IMG/VR virus record: IMGVR_UViG_3300027898_000042
Location: 1 to 23,003 of that record
DNA from: a virus
Reading direction: 5' to 3' (one strand)
Length of the DNA: 23,003 nucleotides
Shown one piece after another: positions 367 to 17,400 of the stretch. The notes beneath the pieces are model-generated. The model saw only the letters and a program-made list of their open reading frames with translations, was not told the origin of the DNA and did not search any database. Positions within the stretch are counted from its first letter, which is position 1; every line of letters starts with the position of its first letter. Position numbers and translations under genes: made by a program.

Positions 367-412
367 ACATAGACCCGCCGCGTGGGTCAATCAATGCCCC
401 AGGAGATTGCGA

Positions 413-628
413 ATGGCACGGCTTACCAGTGCAGCCCGTAAGCGTATCCCGGGCTCTAAATTCGGCCTTCCAAAAGAGCGCGCGTACCCCGTGAATGACC
501 CAAATCATGCCCGGAACGCCAAGGCGCGGGCCTCCGAGGAAGAACGAAAAGGCAAGCTGACCAAACGGCAGGAGGCCGAGATTGATCGTGCCGCTGACCG
601 CGTACTCAAACCGAGGAAGATGAAATGA
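413..628 (+). CDS. small basic phage protein (DUF6582-like)
   Basis: 71 residues from ATG 413, chosen because AGGAGA at 401-406 sits six bases upstream; the TTG at 407 would overlap that ribosome binding site. The pattern LTSAARKRIPGSKFGLP, then YPVNDPNHARNAKAR, is typical of a widespread family of short phage and bacterial proteins of unknown role (DUF6582-like from memory, not searched). The rest is a charged Lys/Arg/Glu helix ending in KPRKMK. Its stop overlaps the ATG of the next ORF (ATGA at 625-628), implying translational coupling. No enzymatic function is suggested. Confidence 0.7.
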   Translation: MARLTSAARKRIPGSKFGLPKERAYPVNDPNHARNAKARASEEERKGKLTKRQEAEIDRAADRVLKPRKMK

Positions 629-801
629 AGCACCCTGTACCCGGCGAGCATAAGCACGAAGGCCATCGTTCGAAAGAACGTGAATGGGACAAGCACCTCA
701 AGGAAGGCGCGAAGCATCTCGAACACCACCACAAGGAAGAGACTCGAGAGGTCGATCACCGGCACCTGGAGCCGCATAAACATCATGGGGGAGTACGTTA
801 A
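625..801 (+). CDS. histidine-rich small protein
   Basis: A 58-residue ORF that starts on an ATGA overlap with the upstream gene and ends TAA directly against the ATG of the next gene, so it is well embedded in the operon. Fourteen of 58 residues are His, with clusters such as EHHHKEE and HKHHGG; almost all the remainder are Lys, Arg or Glu. It is too short for a globular enzyme. Possible roles are metal or nucleic-acid binding, but no family is recognised. Confidence 0.6.
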   Translation: MKHPVPGEHKHEGHRSKEREWDKHLKEGAKHLEHHHKEETREVDHRHLEPHKHHGGVR

Positions 802-1335
802 ATGCCGGGTTGGTTATCGAACGGCCTGCCGCCAATCGGCGCTCCGGTCCAAAATGGTGTCACGGTCACCGCGAACTCCATCAACATCAATGGCACCCTG
901 AGTGGCGGGGAGGGTCTGAGTTATTCCAATCTGACTGCCTCAGCGCTCATCCCTGTGGATACTGAAACCGCGTCGGGTCAGGTCCCGCAGTCAGTCGCGG
1001 CCACCACATTCCAGATCGCGGCGATAGCCAGCGAGATCGTCTCCAATACCGCGACCAGCACCGTGCATGCCGCCACCCTCAATACGGTCGCGGGGCTGAT
1101 CACGACGGAGGCGCTGACCACGGCGGCTGGTTCCACCTATACCTTCACGCTGACTAACTCGCTACTCGTGGCCGGCGCGCCGGCGCCGCAGGTTCAGGTC
1201 CACTCCGGCACGAATACCGGAGGCGGCTTCGCGGTGACCAGCGTGACGAACGCGACGGGCAGCACTGTTATCGTGTTGACCAACACTGGGACGACGGCCT
1301 GGAACGGCACAATCCTGATTGCGTTTCATATCTGA
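802..1335 (+). CDS. putative virion structural or decoration protein
   Basis: 177 residues, starting immediately after the TAA of the His-rich ORF. It is rich in Ser, Thr, Ala, Gly and Val with alternating hydrophobic stretches (for example STYTFTLTNSLLVAG and STVIVLTNTGTTAWNG), a composition typical of beta-sandwich phage head-decoration or fibre proteins. There is no signal peptide, membrane helix or catalytic motif. It lies just upstream of the terminase genes. The structural role is inferred from composition and context only. Confidence 0.55.
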   Translation: MPGWLSNGLPPIGAPVQNGVTVTANSININGTLSGGEGLSYSNLTASALIPVDTETASGQVPQSVAATTFQIAAIASEIVSNTATSTVHAATLNTVAGLITTEALTTAAGSTYTFTLTNSLLVAGAPAPQVQVHSGTNTGGGFAVTSVTNATGSTVIVLTNTGTTAWNGTILIAFHI

Positions 1336-2920: not shown

Positions 2921-2961
2921 TCACCATCGGTTCAGTTACACCTAAAGGAAAGGCCATCCCC

Positions 2962-3291
2962 ATGCGTGAACCCCATCGTAAAGAAATGCGTCGCGAAGAG
3001 CCGAAGCGGAAGGAAGAACCCCGTAAGCCGCATCACGAAGCGTATATGCGCGGCCATAAAGACGGCAAGGCGGGGAGGCCCGCGAACCCTGGCGATCCTG
3101 AGACCAAGGCTGGTGGCCGCGGTGACGGGATGCGTGAGGCCACCCGCGAAAAGCCCGGAACCGAACGGGGTAAGCCCAATATGGGTAAGCAGCCGTCGCT
3201 CAAGTCGGACGGGATGAAGATAGCGGCGCGCGGCGAACGTGGTGCATCGAAGTTGTCGCCTATGAAGGCGGCTGAGATGCGGGTGCGGTGA
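2962..3291 (+). CDS. small basic protein, unknown function
   Basis: 109 residues from ATG 2962, preferred over the in-frame ATG at 2905 because AAGGAAAGG (2944-2953) precedes it and because 2905 lies inside the terminase gene. It is extremely hydrophilic: the first 30 residues are almost only Arg, Lys, Glu, Pro and His, and the rest is Gly/Lys/Arg-rich with no hydrophobic core, so it is probably disordered and could bind nucleic acid. It overlaps the next start (GTGA, 3288-3291). No family recognised. Confidence 0.55.
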   Translation: MREPHRKEMRREEPKRKEEPRKPHHEAYMRGHKDGKAGRPANPGDPETKAGGRGDGMREATREKPGTERGKPNMGKQPSLKSDGMKIAARGERGASKLSPMKAAEMRVR

Positions 3292-3894: not shown

Positions 3895-3947
3895 CCGAAT
3901 GCCACTCTAACATGATCTTCGAAAAAATTTTGTGCGCGCCTTAGTCT

Positions 3948-6113
3948 ATGTCGCTATCCATTGACGGACCAGACACAGAGATTGAAACGGAAGGCGAAAC
4001 CGAAGAAGCCGCTATCGTGCGTCGCGCGCACCGCCGCTTCAAGAAGTGGCAGGCGTGGGAGAAAGAGGCCGGAGAACATTGGCTGAGCGACTACAAGTTC
4101 GCTAATGGCGATGCTTACAACAACTTTCAGTGGCCTGACGCGATCTATCAGACCCGGGGGGATCGCCCCACTCTTACAGTCAATGAGACACGCCAGCACA
4201 ATCTTCACATTATCAATGAGGCCAAACAGAACAAAGCCAGCGTCCGATACAGACCTGTCGGCGACGGCGCCTCCCCTGAAAGCGCCGAGGCTATGGAAGG
4301 CATTTATCGCCACATCCAAAACCTTAGCAACGGACAGATGGCGCAGGGGCAAGCGATTAGTTTTCAGGTCCAGGCAGGTCTCGGCTACACCATTATCCGG
4401 TCTAAGTTTATCGATCAGAAATCCTTTGATCAGGATATATGGATTGATGGTTGTCCCAATCCTCTTGCCGTCGCGCTTGATCCTGATTCAGTTCAACCTG
4501 ACGGTTCTGACGCCCGTTTCGGATTTATCTTCGCGGATAGACCCAGAGACGAAATGGAGGAAAAATATAAGCGCCTACGCAATCGTGGGGCCACGGCAAA
4601 CGCGGTTGACGGTCAAGACAGCGGTTGGATCAGAGAAGATCATATCCGCGAGGCGGAGTATTACGAGGTCACCGAAGATCGGGATGAGTTGCTAGGAGAT
4701 GACGAAGGGAACGTGATATTCCGTAGTCAAACCCCGGCGAACTTATTGAAGAGGTGGGAAGAAGAGGCCAAGGCACGAGGTTCAAAACTAAAGCGCCGCC
4801 CTATCGTGCGGAAGTCTGTTAAGTGGTATCTGATTGTTGGCGACATCATTGTTGATGAGACCGATATCCCAGGGACATCCGTGCCGATCATTCCATGGGT
4901 CGGAGAGGTTACGGTCATAGATCAGCGTCTTGATCGTAAGGGCCACACCCGTTGCATGCTGAGCGCGCAGCAGATGGAGAATTATAACTGGTCTGCTTCC
5001 GTGGAGTTTGGCGCGCTACAAAGTAAGACACCATGGTTGATCGCGGCGGCGGCCATAGGCACCTATATGTCTTATTGGGCAAACGCCAACACGGAAAATC
5101 CGGCGTTTCTGCCTTGGATACACGTTGATGAAAACGGAAAGGATATCCCCTCCCCTCAACGCCAACAGCCTCCCGTGAGTGCTCCCGCCTATCTTGAAGG
5201 TGTCACCATGGCGAGGCAGTTCATGCTATCGGCCAGCGGCCAATATGAGGCGGAACTTGGCGCTCCTGGGAATGAAAGGTCGGGGAAGGCGATCAACGAA
5301 CGGCAGAGACAAGGCGACCGCGCTACCTATCATTTTATCGATAATCAGGCTCTGGCAATCAGGCGGCAAGGCGAGATCATCAAGGAATGGATACCGGTGA
5401 TTTATGACACGCCTCGCGTGTTGCGGATTATCGGGGAAGACGGAACCGAATCACACGTTCAAATCGATCCTGAAGCTATGGTGGCGCATCAGCGAACGGC
5501 CGATGGCGCGGCGGCGATCCTGAACCCCGCTGTAGGAAGGTATGAAGTCGTTTCCGATGTGGGGCCTGACTATGCCACGCAACGGCAGGAAGCGTTCAAT
5601 GCGATCGTGCAAATTCTGACGCAGGCACCGCAGCTAATTGATCGTATTGGAGACCTGTTGTTCAAGGTGGCCGACTTCCCACTGGCGGATCAGATCGCGG
5701 AACGGCTGAAACCCGGGCTGCCACCGGAGGCGCAACAGGCGATTACGGGGCTTCAGAAGCAGCTACAGAACCAAAATAGGCTTCTTGGAGAGGCTATGCA
5801 GGCGTTATCTGAGGAGCGGTTGAAGGCCAAGGATTACGACACGGAAAACACCGTCAAGGCGTTTGACGCCGATACACGCCGCCTCAGTGCGATGCAGAAG
5901 ATGCTGCCGATGGATGCCCAGGAGTTGCAGAAACTGATCCATGAGACCATGCGGCAGGCGTTGCAGGACAATTTGGGGCCAGTTATTGGAAACCTTGTGC
6001 AAGGCGTGCAACGGGATGCCGATCCCGCGTCTGGCGACGGTTCCGGTGAATTGCCGATCAGGGTGCCGGATGTTGGACAACAGGCCGCGAGTCCAGGAGG
6101 GATGGCGCCATGA
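3948..6113 (+). CDS. portal protein (P22 gp1-like)
   Basis: 721 residues, very near the 725 of P22 gp1. The portal forms the ring at one head vertex through which DNA is packaged and ejected and on which the tail is built. The N-terminal part (AIVRRAHRRFKKWQAWEKEAGEHWLSDYKFANGDAYNNFQWP) and the P-rich core (NPLAVALDPDSVQPDGSDARFGFI) are typical of the P22_portal family; residues about 580-690 form the long helical barrel/coiled region (LQKQLQNQNRLLGEAMQALSEERLKAKDYDTE). An in-frame TAG lies two codons upstream of ATG 3948, which fixes the earliest start; no strong ribosome binding site is visible. Its position after the terminase and before scaffold and coat matches P22. Confidence 0.92.
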   Translation: MSLSIDGPDTEIETEGETEEAAIVRRAHRRFKKWQAWEKEAGEHWLSDYKFANGDAYNNFQWPDAIYQTRGDRPTLTVNETRQHNLHIINEAKQNKASVRYRPVGDGASPESAEAMEGIYRHIQNLSNGQMAQGQAISFQVQAGLGYTIIRSKFIDQKSFDQDIWIDGCPNPLAVALDPDSVQPDGSDARFGFIFADRPRDEMEEKYKRLRNRGATANAVDGQDSGWIREDHIREAEYYEVTEDRDELLGDDEGNVIFRSQTPANLLKRWEEEAKARGSKLKRRPIVRKSVKWYLIVGDIIVDETDIPGTSVPIIPWVGEVTVIDQRLDRKGHTRCMLSAQQMENYNWSASVEFGALQSKTPWLIAAAAIGTYMSYWANANTENPAFLPWIHVDENGKDIPSPQRQQPPVSAPAYLEGVTMARQFMLSASGQYEAELGAPGNERSGKAINERQRQGDRATYHFIDNQALAIRRQGEIIKEWIPVIYDTPRVLRIIGEDGTESHVQIDPEAMVAHQRTADGAAAILNPAVGRYEVVSDVGPDYATQRQEAFNAIVQILTQAPQLIDRIGDLLFKVADFPLADQIAERLKPGLPPEAQQAITGLQKQLQNQNRLLGEAMQALSEERLKAKDYDTENTVKAFDADTRRLSAMQKMLPMDAQELQKLIHETMRQALQDNLGPVIGNLVQGVQRDADPASGDGSGELPIRVPDVGQQAASPGGMAP

Positions 6114-8051: not shown

Positions 8052-8108
8052 ATGGATTTTTGTTTGTCCAGCACTTGTAGCTTCGGCTCGTGCATTCGTT
8101 TGGAGTAG
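8052..8108 (+). CDS. possible 18-residue Cys-containing leader peptide
   Basis: ATG 8052 follows AGGGAGTGAG (8042-8051) and encodes MDFCLSSTCSFGSCIRLE, with Cys evenly spaced at 4, 9 and 14. Its last codons contain the GGAG (8102-8105) that serves the coat GTG, and it stops six bases before that start, so ribosomes finishing here could feed coat translation. It may be a chance ORF; the evidence is the ribosome binding site and spacing only. Confidence 0.25.
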   Translation: MDFCLSSTCSFGSCIRLE

Positions 8109-8114
8109 AATAAA

Positions 8115-9619
8115 GTGGCCAACAGCCTGCTTACGATCAACATGATCACAAGGCTGGCCGTCAGACTGTGGAAAAATACGAATGCGTTTATGCGCAACCT
8201 CGATTAACATGTACGGTCGAGAATAAACTGCGTGAATTGACTGGGACACCCTTAGAGCCATTGTCGCCACAGCGTAGCCCGAAAGAGCAGGCGCGAAGGT
8301 CAAAAAGCACAATGGATTGGGCAATCAGCAGCCAAGACCCTCGCAAGTGGGTAAGGTTCAACGATCATCCCGCAAGGGAGTAGGGCCAAGCGGCCCGAAG
8401 CGCGCAGCCCCCGATACGGGGTGATGATATGATCTGTTCTGCAATGAAAGTTGCAGCAGCCTTGGCGGTTCAAGGATAGCGATCTTGAACGAACAGAAAG
8501 ACACAGTACGACGACCAATACGCCCGCGAGGGCGCCAAGATCGGCAGTCAGTTGCGTATCCGTCTGCCCGTCGATTTCACCGTGCGGCATGGCGCGGCGG
8601 CATCGTTCCAGGATGTGAGCGAACAGTTCACGACCCTGACGATGGCGACGCAGGACGGCGTGGATATGACGTTCCCGTCCATCGATCTCACGCTGTCCAT
8701 TGATGACTTCGCGGAACGCTATATCGCCCCGGCGGTGAACAACCTCGCTGGCGATGTCGCGGTCGGTGTGATGGCGGGTGCCGAGGGCGGCGTCTGCAAC
8801 TACATCGACAACGAAGCCGCTGGCGTGATCATCACCCCGTCGATCAACACGTTCCTGACCGCGAACGCCATCCTGGCTACGCAGTCGGCGCCCGTGCTTA
8901 ACCATCGGATCGTGATCAACCCGTACACCGATGCCCGAACCGCCGGAGCGTTGGCTGGGCTCTTCAATCCCGCTACTGAAATCAGCGAACAGTATCGTTC
9001 AGGTGGGATGAAGAACGCGCTTGGCCTCGATTGGCTGAGCGATCAAACCGTCATCCAGCACACTTCCGGCACCTTCACGGCCGGGACTGTTTCTGGCGCC
9101 GGGCAGACCGGCAGCGTGATCACCGTCAACGCGATCACCGGCACTTTGGCGGCGGGCGATATCATCACGTTCGCCAGCGTGAATGGGGTCAACCGTATCA
9201 CCAAGAAATCCTACGGGCAGCTTCGGCAGTTCGTGGTGGTGAATGCGGTGGCGTCAAGCGGGACCTCCATCACGATCTATCCGGCGTTGATCCCTGGGGG
9301 CGTTGGGGGTGCCCAGGTCCAATACCAGACGACCGATATCAGCCCGGCGAACTCGGCCACGATCACGTTGCAAGGGCCGGCCAACACCACCTACCGGAAG
9401 AACATCGTCTTTGTCCCCGAGGCGATTACGATGGCGACGGCCGATCTGGAAATCCCGCCTAAGGTTGATGCCGCCCGCCATGAGTTTGACGGTGTGTCGA
9501 TGCGGATGGTCACTCAATATGTGATTGGGACTGATCAGACGGGAACCCGGCTTGACGTGGTTTGGGGTGCGCTTTGGATAAGGCCGGAATGGGCGACAGT
9601 CGTCGCAGATGCCCTTTGA
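8115..9619 (+). CDS. major coat protein (P22 gp5-like), split gene: join 8115-8204, 8501-9619
   Basis: Exon 1 (GTG 8115, GGAG at 8102-8105) gives 30 residues, MANSLLTINMITRL...AFMRNLD, the standard N-terminus of P22-type coat proteins; it is then stopped by TAA. Exon 2 continues at 8501 in the same phase: TQYDDQYAREGAKIGSQLRI, the next conserved block. Joined, the protein has 402 residues (P22 gp5 has 430). Later landmarks: DGVDMTFPSIDLTLSIDDFAERYI, the ITGTLAAGDIITFASV beta-domain (242-257), RQFVV, and a C-terminal TGTRLDVVWGALWIRPEW typical of the family. Four hundred-odd copies would form the icosahedral shell. A reader starting at the in-frame TTG 8552 would lose the N-terminal arm. The intervening 8205-8500 is a group I intron. 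Confidence 0.9.
8205..8500 (+). ncRNA. group I intron, subgroup IA-like, without ORF
   Basis: The self-splicing RNA interrupts the coat gene between codons 30 and 31. P1: exon CTCGAT (8199-8204) pairs with GTCGAG (8216-8221), placing the required U-G wobble at the 5' splice site. P3: 8228-8234/8401-8407, 7 bp. P4: about 8241-8244/8325-8328. P5: 8249-8251/8319-8321 plus 8258-8263/8310-8315. P6: 8337-8340/8349-8352. P7: 8360-8368/8429-8438 with one bulge. P7.1 (8369-8378, GCAA loop) and P7.2 (8383-8396) are the extra hairpins of IA introns. P8: 8409-8421. P9: 8439-8456; P9.1: 8468-8490. The intron ends in G8500. The Q-like AATCAGCAGCCAAG and R-like GGTTCAACGATCA segments fit. No endonuclease ORF is present. 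Confidence 0.92.
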
Positions 9620-15775: not shown

Positions 15776-16342
15776 ATGGCCCTGAACCCCCTCGCGATCA
15801 ACTTTCCCCACGGACAAGTCCCCGTGGTCGATCCCGCGACGGGTACTCCAACCACATCGTTCTGGTATATGTTCCAGGGGTTCCTGATCAGGACCGGCGG
15901 TCCTTTGGGGATCGGAACCGCGGATGTCGCGGCTGTCGCCAATGAAGCGTTGACCAACGCGGCCGCCGCTCAAGGAACAGCAAACACCGCGTTGACCAAC
16001 GCGGCCGCCGCTCAAGGAACAGCAAACACCGCGTTGACAGATGCCACGACGGCGCAAACGACCGCGAATACCGCGATTACCGATGTTGTTGCTGAGACTG
16101 CCCGCGCCGAGGCCGCGGAGGCGCTATTGGCACCGATCGCGTCTCCCACATTCACGGGGGTAGCAACCTCGCCAGAATACGCGGTCGGAACATCCGCGGG
16201 TCCTACCTGGTCTACAGGTGGCGGCGTTCCTTCATCGACAATGCCGCGAGGCTCTCTTTACTCCCGTGTTGGAGGCGGCGTGGGATCGACCTTATACGTC
16301 AGTCAAGGTGGCGGGACGTGGAACCCGGTGGCTGGGGTATGA
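15776..16342 (+). CDS. tail fibre-like protein with tandem repeat
   Basis: 188 residues, two bases after the previous stop. N-terminus NFPHGQVPVVDPATGTPTTSFWYMFQGFLIRTGG is the common virion-attachment start of small phage fibre proteins. Residues 58-99 are a repeated heptad-like ALTNAAAAQGTANT (two perfect copies plus a degenerate third), likely a trimeric coiled coil. Then IASPTFTGVATSP, a fibre repeat signature, and a Gly/Ser-rich end. Probably part of the host-contact apparatus. Stop overlaps the next ATG (16339-16342). Confidence 0.7.
   Translation: MALNPLAINFPHGQVPVVDPATGTPTTSFWYMFQGFLIRTGGPLGIGTADVAAVANEALTNAAAAQGTANTALTNAAAAQGTANTALTDATTAQTTANTAITDVVAETARAEAAEALLAPIASPTFTGVATSPEYAVGTSAGPTWSTGGGVPSSTMPRGSLYSRVGGGVGSTLYVSQGGGTWNPVAGV
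15947..16030 (+). repeat. 42-bp perfect tandem duplication
   Basis: Two identical 42-base copies, 15947-15988 and 15989-16030, each encoding ALTNAAAAQGTANT within the fibre-like gene. A diverged third copy follows (16031-16078). Sequence identity at DNA level implies a recent in-frame duplication that changes coiled-coil length by 14 residues. Confidence 0.9.
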
Positions 16343-17400
16343 CCCAGTTTATCGTCTACGGTCTGCCGAGGTCCCGCACTTTTTGGCTCTCGCGTTTTCT
16401 GTCATTCGGCCAATGGCATTGCGGCCACGATGAGATCAGACACGCGCGGTCAATGGACGATATAAAATCCTGGTTCTCTCAGGACTTTACCGGGACCGTG
16501 GAAACTGCCGCCGCGCCATGGTGGCGTTTGGTTCAGAATATGCAGCCAGGTATTAAGACGGTCGTGGTGCGGAGGCCAGTTGACGAGGTCGTGGACAGCA
16601 TGGCGCGGCTTGGGCTCCGCTTCGATCCTACATCCGTTGCCACCAACCTCCGGCACCTTGACCGTAAACTTGATCAGATCGAACGGCGCGTGCCCAATGT
16701 GTTATCTGTGACTTTCTCTGATCTGATGACAGAGAGTGTTTGCGCCACGGTTTTTGAGCATTGCCTGGGCGCCCCGCTCAATCCTGAATGGTACGCGGTC
16801 ATGGTTCCGTTGAACATTCAAATGAACTTTGGCGCGTGTCTTCGCTATTATCATGCGAATCAGCCTCAACTAACAAAAATCGCATCGATAGCAAAACATC
16901 GCATTCTCGCGGATATGAGACCAAGAACGTATGATATTGAAGGAATGACCATTCAGCAGGAATCATTCGAGACGTTTTTCCAGGATGGCCGCCATTTGTT
17001 TGACGAACATCTGGTCTTGGTAGGAGAAGAGCCAGGGGCTTATCTCAACAAGAACGTCCCGATGATGCGGCATTTATACGATGCGGGGGTTATGCAGATC
17101 ACGACGGCCCGATCAAATGGACGGATGTTCGGATACCTCATGGCCCTTGTTAATCCTTCAATGGAGTCCGAAGCGATCACAACGGCGATACACACGACCT
17201 TTTTTGCATCTCGCGATGTTCCTGGTCTTGGGATGAAGCTACAGCGGGCCTCTCTCGCGGCGCTCCGGAAACGTGGCGTAGACGAGGCTTTCTGGATTGC
17301 TGGAACGCGCGGCGATGGCCCTCGATTGGATGTTCTATATCGCCGGTTGGGTGCTGAAAATTTTGGGCAGATGTTCAAACTCAACATGACGGTGCATTGA
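16339..17400 (+). CDS. sulfotransferase-like / GNAT acetyltransferase fusion
   Basis: 353 residues from ATG 16339 (overlapping the fibre stop). Residues 4-17, FIVYGLPRSRTFWL, form the 5'-phosphosulfate (PAPS) loop; 75-88, VVVRRPVDEVVDSM, is the 3'-phosphate site, so residues 1 to about 190 resemble a sulfotransferase. Residues about 203-353 have the GNAT pattern: GRMFGYLMALVNPS (261-274, beta-4), VPGLGMKLQRASLAALRKRGVDEAFWI (294-320, acetyl-CoA loop and helix) and LDVLYRRLGAENFGQMFKLNM (330-350). A stand-alone GNAT of this kind is common in the tail cluster of similar phages. The R/QxxGxG loop is degenerate, so acetylation may be lost. Substrates are unknown; a modifier of a virion or host surface is inferred. 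Confidence 0.75.
   Translation: MTQFIVYGLPRSRTFWLSRFLSFGQWHCGHDEIRHARSMDDIKSWFSQDFTGTVETAAAPWWRLVQNMQPGIKTVVVRRPVDEVVDSMARLGLRFDPTSVATNLRHLDRKLDQIERRVPNVLSVTFSDLMTESVCATVFEHCLGAPLNPEWYAVMVPLNIQMNFGACLRYYHANQPQLTKIASIAKHRILADMRPRTYDIEGMTIQQESFETFFQDGRHLFDEHLVLVGEEPGAYLNKNVPMMRHLYDAGVMQITTARSNGRMFGYLMALVNPSMESEAITTAIHTTFFASRDVPGLGMKLQRASLAALRKRGVDEAFWIAGTRGDGPRLDVLYRRLGAENFGQMFKLNMTVH

Follow-up and report, generated by a model that had tools for sequence, protein, structure and literature searches.

A group I intron interrupting the coat gene of a P22-like phage

How can a phage make its coat protein when the gene for it runs into a stop codon after only 30 codons? The question arises in a 23,003-bp virus contig, analysed at its full length and called the window here, which is one metagenomic contig with one copy of the interrupting element. 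Nucleotides 8205–8500 are very probably a self-splicing group IA intron, free of an endonuclease gene, within the gene for the major coat protein of an uncultured P22-like podophage.

The interrupted coat gene

The assignment to P22-like phages holds: besides the PF11651 coat protein, the window has genes for a P22 portal, a head-closure protein, and a large terminase subunit (Terminase_3). The features of the gene and its surroundings are:

1634–2920, + strand: terminase large subunit (Terminase_3; PF04466/PF17289)
3948–6113, + strand: P22-like portal protein (PF16510, E 1e-134)
8102–8105, + strand: likely ribosome binding site GGAG, from the sequence, 9 nt 5′ of the GTG start
8115–8204, + strand: coat gene exon 1, 30 codons, VANSLLTINMITRLAVRLWKNTNAFMRNLD (supported by the uninterrupted homologues L008–L010)
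8501–9619, + strand: coat gene exon 2, 372 codons and a stop (PF11651, E 3e-29)

The structural gene block also contains, at 16318–17397 (+), a gene for a 360-aa protein with a weak match to a PHROG annotated as hydrolase.

The coat frame opens at GTG 8115, extends for 30 codons, and closes at TAA 8205–8207; it is picked up again at 8501 (TQYDDQYAREGAKIGSQLRI), which places the intron between codons 30 and 31. This layout of a short open frame that resumes downstream, proposed in a first-pass annotation, is confirmed in the sequence. Joining 8204 to 8501, with 8205–8500 deleted, yields 1,209 nt with a single terminal stop and no internal ones, and so restores the uninterrupted 402-aa coat protein that had been predicted. 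The joined protein belongs, as proposed, to the P22_CoatProtein family, matching PF11651 in a profile search with an E value of 3e-29 and 102.4 bits against a cut-off of 24. The protein of exon 2 is 53% identical to the PAE2 coat protein.

The nearest coat genes are uninterrupted, namely L008 (86% protein identity) and L009 and L010 (both 87%), and in the coat tree the window lies among intronless sisters. The spliced window gene aligns with L008 over 1,209 nt with 0 gaps at 78% DNA identity. At the junction, marked here by a slash, L008 reads CGCAACCTCGAC/ACGCAG and the window CGCAACCTCGAT/ACACAG, with the same amino acids; the window's CGCAACCTCGAT provides the U required at a group I 5′ splice site, where L008 has CGCAACCTCGAC. 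An intronless allele with contiguous exons is found in L008–L010 and in about 240 other coat genes. Comparison with such genes, the check proposed for the split gene, found that close relatives do possess the 8115–8204 segment and are colinear across the junction.

Fold and splice sites of the intron

The interruption matches the group I intron model RF00028 at 8179–8456 (+) with 60.5 bits and an E value of 2.6e-13, above the Rfam gathering score of 50, which bears out the proposal that a group I intron splits the coat gene. It is the sole Rfam match in the window and the single RF00028 match of the whole 23,003-bp record. The parts of the intron are:

8205–8500, + strand: group I intron of 296 nt, subgroup IA (probably IA2), without an endonuclease gene (RF00028, covariation)
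8205–8207, + strand: in-frame TAA, the first intron bases (sequence)
8199–8221, + strand: P1, exon CUCGAU (8199–8204) with internal guide GUCGAG (8216–8221), including the U8204·G8216 wobble
8363–8367, + strand: P7 5′ strand GAUCA, partner of UGAUC at 8430–8434 (covariation)
8409–8421, + strand: short P8 hairpin CCCC-GATAC-GGGG, the position of the HNH ORF in L022
8430–8434, + strand: P7 3′ strand UGAUC (covariation)
8439–8456, + strand: P9 hairpin CTGCAAT-GAAA-GTTGCAG (RF00028 match; helix 13 of the covariation structure)
8500, + strand: terminal (omega) G (sequence)

The U–G splice-site helix, the helices P3 to P9, and the terminal G named in the first-pass annotation were recovered as U8204·G8216, the covarying core, and G8500. 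P1 has no more than 6 bp, and P10 is either short or unclear. Since P1-like helices of at least 6 bp within 60 nt occur by chance at 12.6% of window T positions, P1 alone is weak evidence, and its complementarity was rejected as a stand-alone argument. A total of 43 U/G splice pairs leave the frame open; the 8204/8500 pair agrees without gaps with relatives such as L008.

The fold was examined by covariation in the window intron and five homologous coat-gene introns (n = 6) with endonuclease ORFs cut out. Pairs were counted on the RNAalifold structure together with P7, which was added by hand from the RF00028 consensus. Across 70 pairs, 94.9% of cells are paired and 46 pairs have changes on both sides, counts biased towards the fold since six sequences are few and the structure derives from the same six. 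None of 500 shuffles reached as high a value, and sliding the partner strand lowered pairing to 31–41% (maximum 40.5%). The core P3-P4-P5-P6-P7-P8 with its P3/P7 pseudoknot is present by covariation, P3 and P7 being 100% paired across the six introns. All five P7 pairs form in 6/6 introns and three of them have double changes: the window has GAUCA/UGAUC, L022 GGUCA/UGACC, intron A of L271 GACCA/UGGUC, and the others GACUA/UAGUC. Hairpins P7.1/P7.2 between P7 and P3′ (helices 9–11 of the covariation structure) point to subgroup IA. A narrower placing in IA2 is probable.

There is no homing endonuclease in the window intron, whose ORF has no Pfam domain, and none was recognised elsewhere in the 23-kb record; present mobility of the intron is therefore doubtful.

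Interrupted coat genes in related phages

Coat genes were gathered from IMG/VR, GTDB genomes, and GenBank phages by coat protein or exon searches, which left 253 distinct genes after removal of duplicates. Eight of the 253 (about 3%) are interrupted. Seven of these eight contain introns of group I, eight in total, which occupy five sites that all fall in codons 1–33. The window intron lies at codon 30/31, those of L022, L388, and L269 at codon 33, the two of L271 at codons 8 and 33, that of L083 at codon 18, and that of L358 at codon 22/23. Codon 33 encodes the Tyr of the conserved QYDD motif. Besides the window, the coat genes L022, L269, L271, L358 (70.2 bits), and L388 have introns above the RF00028 gathering score, and L083 falls just below the cut-off of 50 with 49.7 bits. 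At 8/8 sites the final exon base is U and the intron-terminal base G, and inspection shows a P1 with its U·G pair in L022, L388, L269, L271 (A and B), L358, and L083. HNH_3 ORFs occur in two of the introns (L022 and L388), and the HNH-bearing relatives match the window intron only in core sequence.

Removal of the intron opens the coat frame in L022, L358, and L388, and also in L269 if an extra 55-nt insertion is removed as well. One internal stop remains in the joined gene of L083. The joined gene of L271 is out of frame and no simple removal restores it, so not every such coat gene is intact. In the coat tree the interrupted genes are scattered among intronless relatives, with the exception of L269 and L271, which are sisters.

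The closest relative of the window intron is in L022 (IMGVR_UViG_3300047509_000141), kinship being judged from an identity matrix. Without its ORF, the L022 intron is 74.7% identical to that of the window, and all others compared are at 50–68%. A scan of IMG/VR for the common core motif returned L022 only (the window's own record was possibly left out of the scan), and a pattern search among coat genes for introns in the window's codon region likewise gave only L022. The two introns share the gene and a 75% identical core; however, the L022 intron is 767 nt long, with the HNH_3 ORF replacing the P8 loop, and its splice site is within codon 33 (CAG T/AT), 7 nt downstream of that in the window. 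The guide of each intron matches its respective site. Two histories would account for the 7-nt offset: homing at one site with a short relocation afterwards, or the separate insertion of two related introns.

The concentration of introns at the start of the gene was compared with the remaining sequence. In the seven intron-bearing records (0.22 Mb), which were selected by their coat-gene interruption, all RF00028 matches are inside the coat gene. Only 95 long records with intact coat genes offer an unselected look at other genes, and these gave 0 RF00028 matches in 3.64 Mb, in a scan where introns with large ORFs can fall below the cut-off. Under random placement over the coat and non-coat sequence examined, the chance of 8/8 introns in coat genes is about 1e-9, and about 2e-9 for all eight within the gene's first 100 nt, both idealised figures. 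A joint reading, which we offer tentatively and think rather unlikely to hold in full, is that codons 1–33 of P22-type coat genes serve as a dedicated landing zone where group IA introns settle in phages otherwise free of them, with at least five insertion points (codons 8, 18, 22/23, 30/31, and 33). The window intron would then have moved locally, by 7 nt, from the codon-33 site associated with HNH, and its internal guide would have been re-matched; reverse splicing once the endonuclease was lost is one conceivable route.

Several further irregularities were seen in these and other records. Short insertions lie past codon 22 of the coat gene in L269 (1611–1665, 55 nt) and L271 (about 1598–1682, ~85 nt). 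Each contains a stop codon and the P1 of a group I intron (AACACU/GGUGUU, with U·G) and lacks a catalytic core; in L358 a full intron occupies this site. Translational bypass after KNT was considered for these insertions and dropped, the hairpin being a group I P1 at the L358 intron site; matched take-off and landing codons were not found there. Among the matches listed by a pattern search for further core-less insertions, no additional coat gene had one. L007 (GenBank MW202674) has a ~270-nt insertion at about 1727–1994, near codon 86 of its P22 coat gene, for which an Rfam search returned no match; the two halves of the gene are annotated as separate coat proteins. Upstream of the two-intron coat gene of L271 is a GIY-YIG endonuclease ORF (380–985, minus strand). 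Duplicated N-terminal coat fragments precede the full coat gene in L058 (2992–3156) and L426 (2066–2182), and a coat gene in a bacterial genome, L088 (Rhodanobacter glycinis NZ_RCZB01000001), has an in-frame stop in the QYDD motif (QYDD*FAR). In the sequenced Phage C72C1 (L002, OQ984150), an RF00028 intron (3903–4143, 81.8 bits) between two ORFs both annotated as major head protein splits a further capsid gene. Vibrio phage 1.232.O (L003, MG592596) also has an RF00028 intron (2948–3218, 83 bits), which starts where the annotated major capsid CDS ends; an HNH nuclease gene comes next.

Proposed splicing and origin, and significance

We infer that the intron is self-splicing. In the late transcript, ribosomes would read exon 1 and halt at the UAA that opens the intron in unspliced RNA, which would leave the ribozyme core free to fold. 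Stop codons shield phage intron cores in this manner in T4. P1 would position U8204 against the internal guide, a guanosine cofactor would attack after U8204, and the freed 3′-OH would then attack after G8500. Ligation of the exons would yield an mRNA for the complete 402-aa coat protein. The likely source of the intron is a mobile ancestor with an HNH gene, like that of L022, and the HNH gene would have been lost later; alternatively, the intron may have been minimal on arrival. As the window copy has no endonuclease, it may now be passively inherited or moved by an enzyme supplied in trans.

Could the intron instead have decayed and no longer splice, leaving a broken coat gene in a defective or remnant phage? 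The loss of any endonuclease and the short P1 would fit such decay, and decay does occur in this coat gene, since L269 and L271 carry core-less intron-like remnants beside intact introns. However, the window's intron forms the paired core helices P3–P9, the exons on either side are open and conserved, and the surrounding terminase, portal, and head genes are intact, so that this explanation is very unlikely. Splicing would be dispensable if a shorter coat protein of 355 aa began at TTG 8552 in exon 2, where an open frame does start, with 8115–8500 serving as an untranslated leader that contains a structured RNA. Such a protein would lose the QYDDQYA..GAKIG block and the 30 N-terminal codons retained by every intact relative, and exon 1 possesses its own start and ribosome binding site; we regard this as extremely unlikely. 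An assembly chimera, in which the intron of another phage was joined into the coat gene, is conceivable for a single metagenomic contig. Yet the intron's own guide pairs with the 5′ exon, whose last base is U instead of the C of relatives, and the independent contig L022 carries, in the same gene, a sister intron at a distance of 7 nt, which makes an artefact of this kind no more credible than the internal start.

Group I introns in capsid genes are known from other phages. Mycobacteriophage LittleE (Cluster J) has a probable one, with splicing demonstrated by RT-PCR and protein data (PMC3706429). As in the window, its 5′ exon ends in U, its intron ends in G, and relatives have intronless alleles; LittleE is, however, a mycobacterial siphophage with an HK97-like capsid gene and an 819-bp intron containing an endonuclease ORF, whereas in the window the gene is of the P22 coat type and the intron a minimal one of 296 nt. 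The LittleE paper also cites lactococcal Tuc2009 (PMC3706429). Group I introns interrupt the major capsid gene of crAss-like phages in the Delta and Zeta groups as well, sometimes several per gene (PMC7886860), but their capsid is of another lineage and their large genomes are intron-rich, while no introns were found outside the coat gene in the window's group. The introns of T4, SPO1, Twort, and Bastillevirinae are mostly IA-type, as in the window, and many have an endonuclease in a peripheral loop (PMC11878797); they differ in residing in genes for DNA polymerase, nucleotide metabolism, lysis, or terminase, and the Bastillevirinae survey mentions no capsid-gene intron (PMC11878797). No report of a group I intron in P22-type coat genes was found in the open literature. 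The first-pass view was that an intron in a coat gene of this class seems uncommon; a capsid-gene intron is indeed uncommon, but it is not new given LittleE, the crAss-like phages, and the six further P22-type coat genes found here. With capsid-gene group I introns already published, interest centres on the N-terminal hot spot and the 7-nt offset.

Gene callers break up coat genes of this kind, as in Phage C72C1 and MW202674, whose capsid genes are annotated as two pieces. Each particle requires hundreds of copies of the coat protein, so that an intron in the coat gene must splice very efficiently. Such an intron is a natural test case for the survival of a selfish ribozyme within a highly expressed gene. 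Together, the intronless, minimal, HNH-bearing, multi-intron, and core-less variants of one short region provide a ready-made system in which intron gain, loss, and relocation can be studied.
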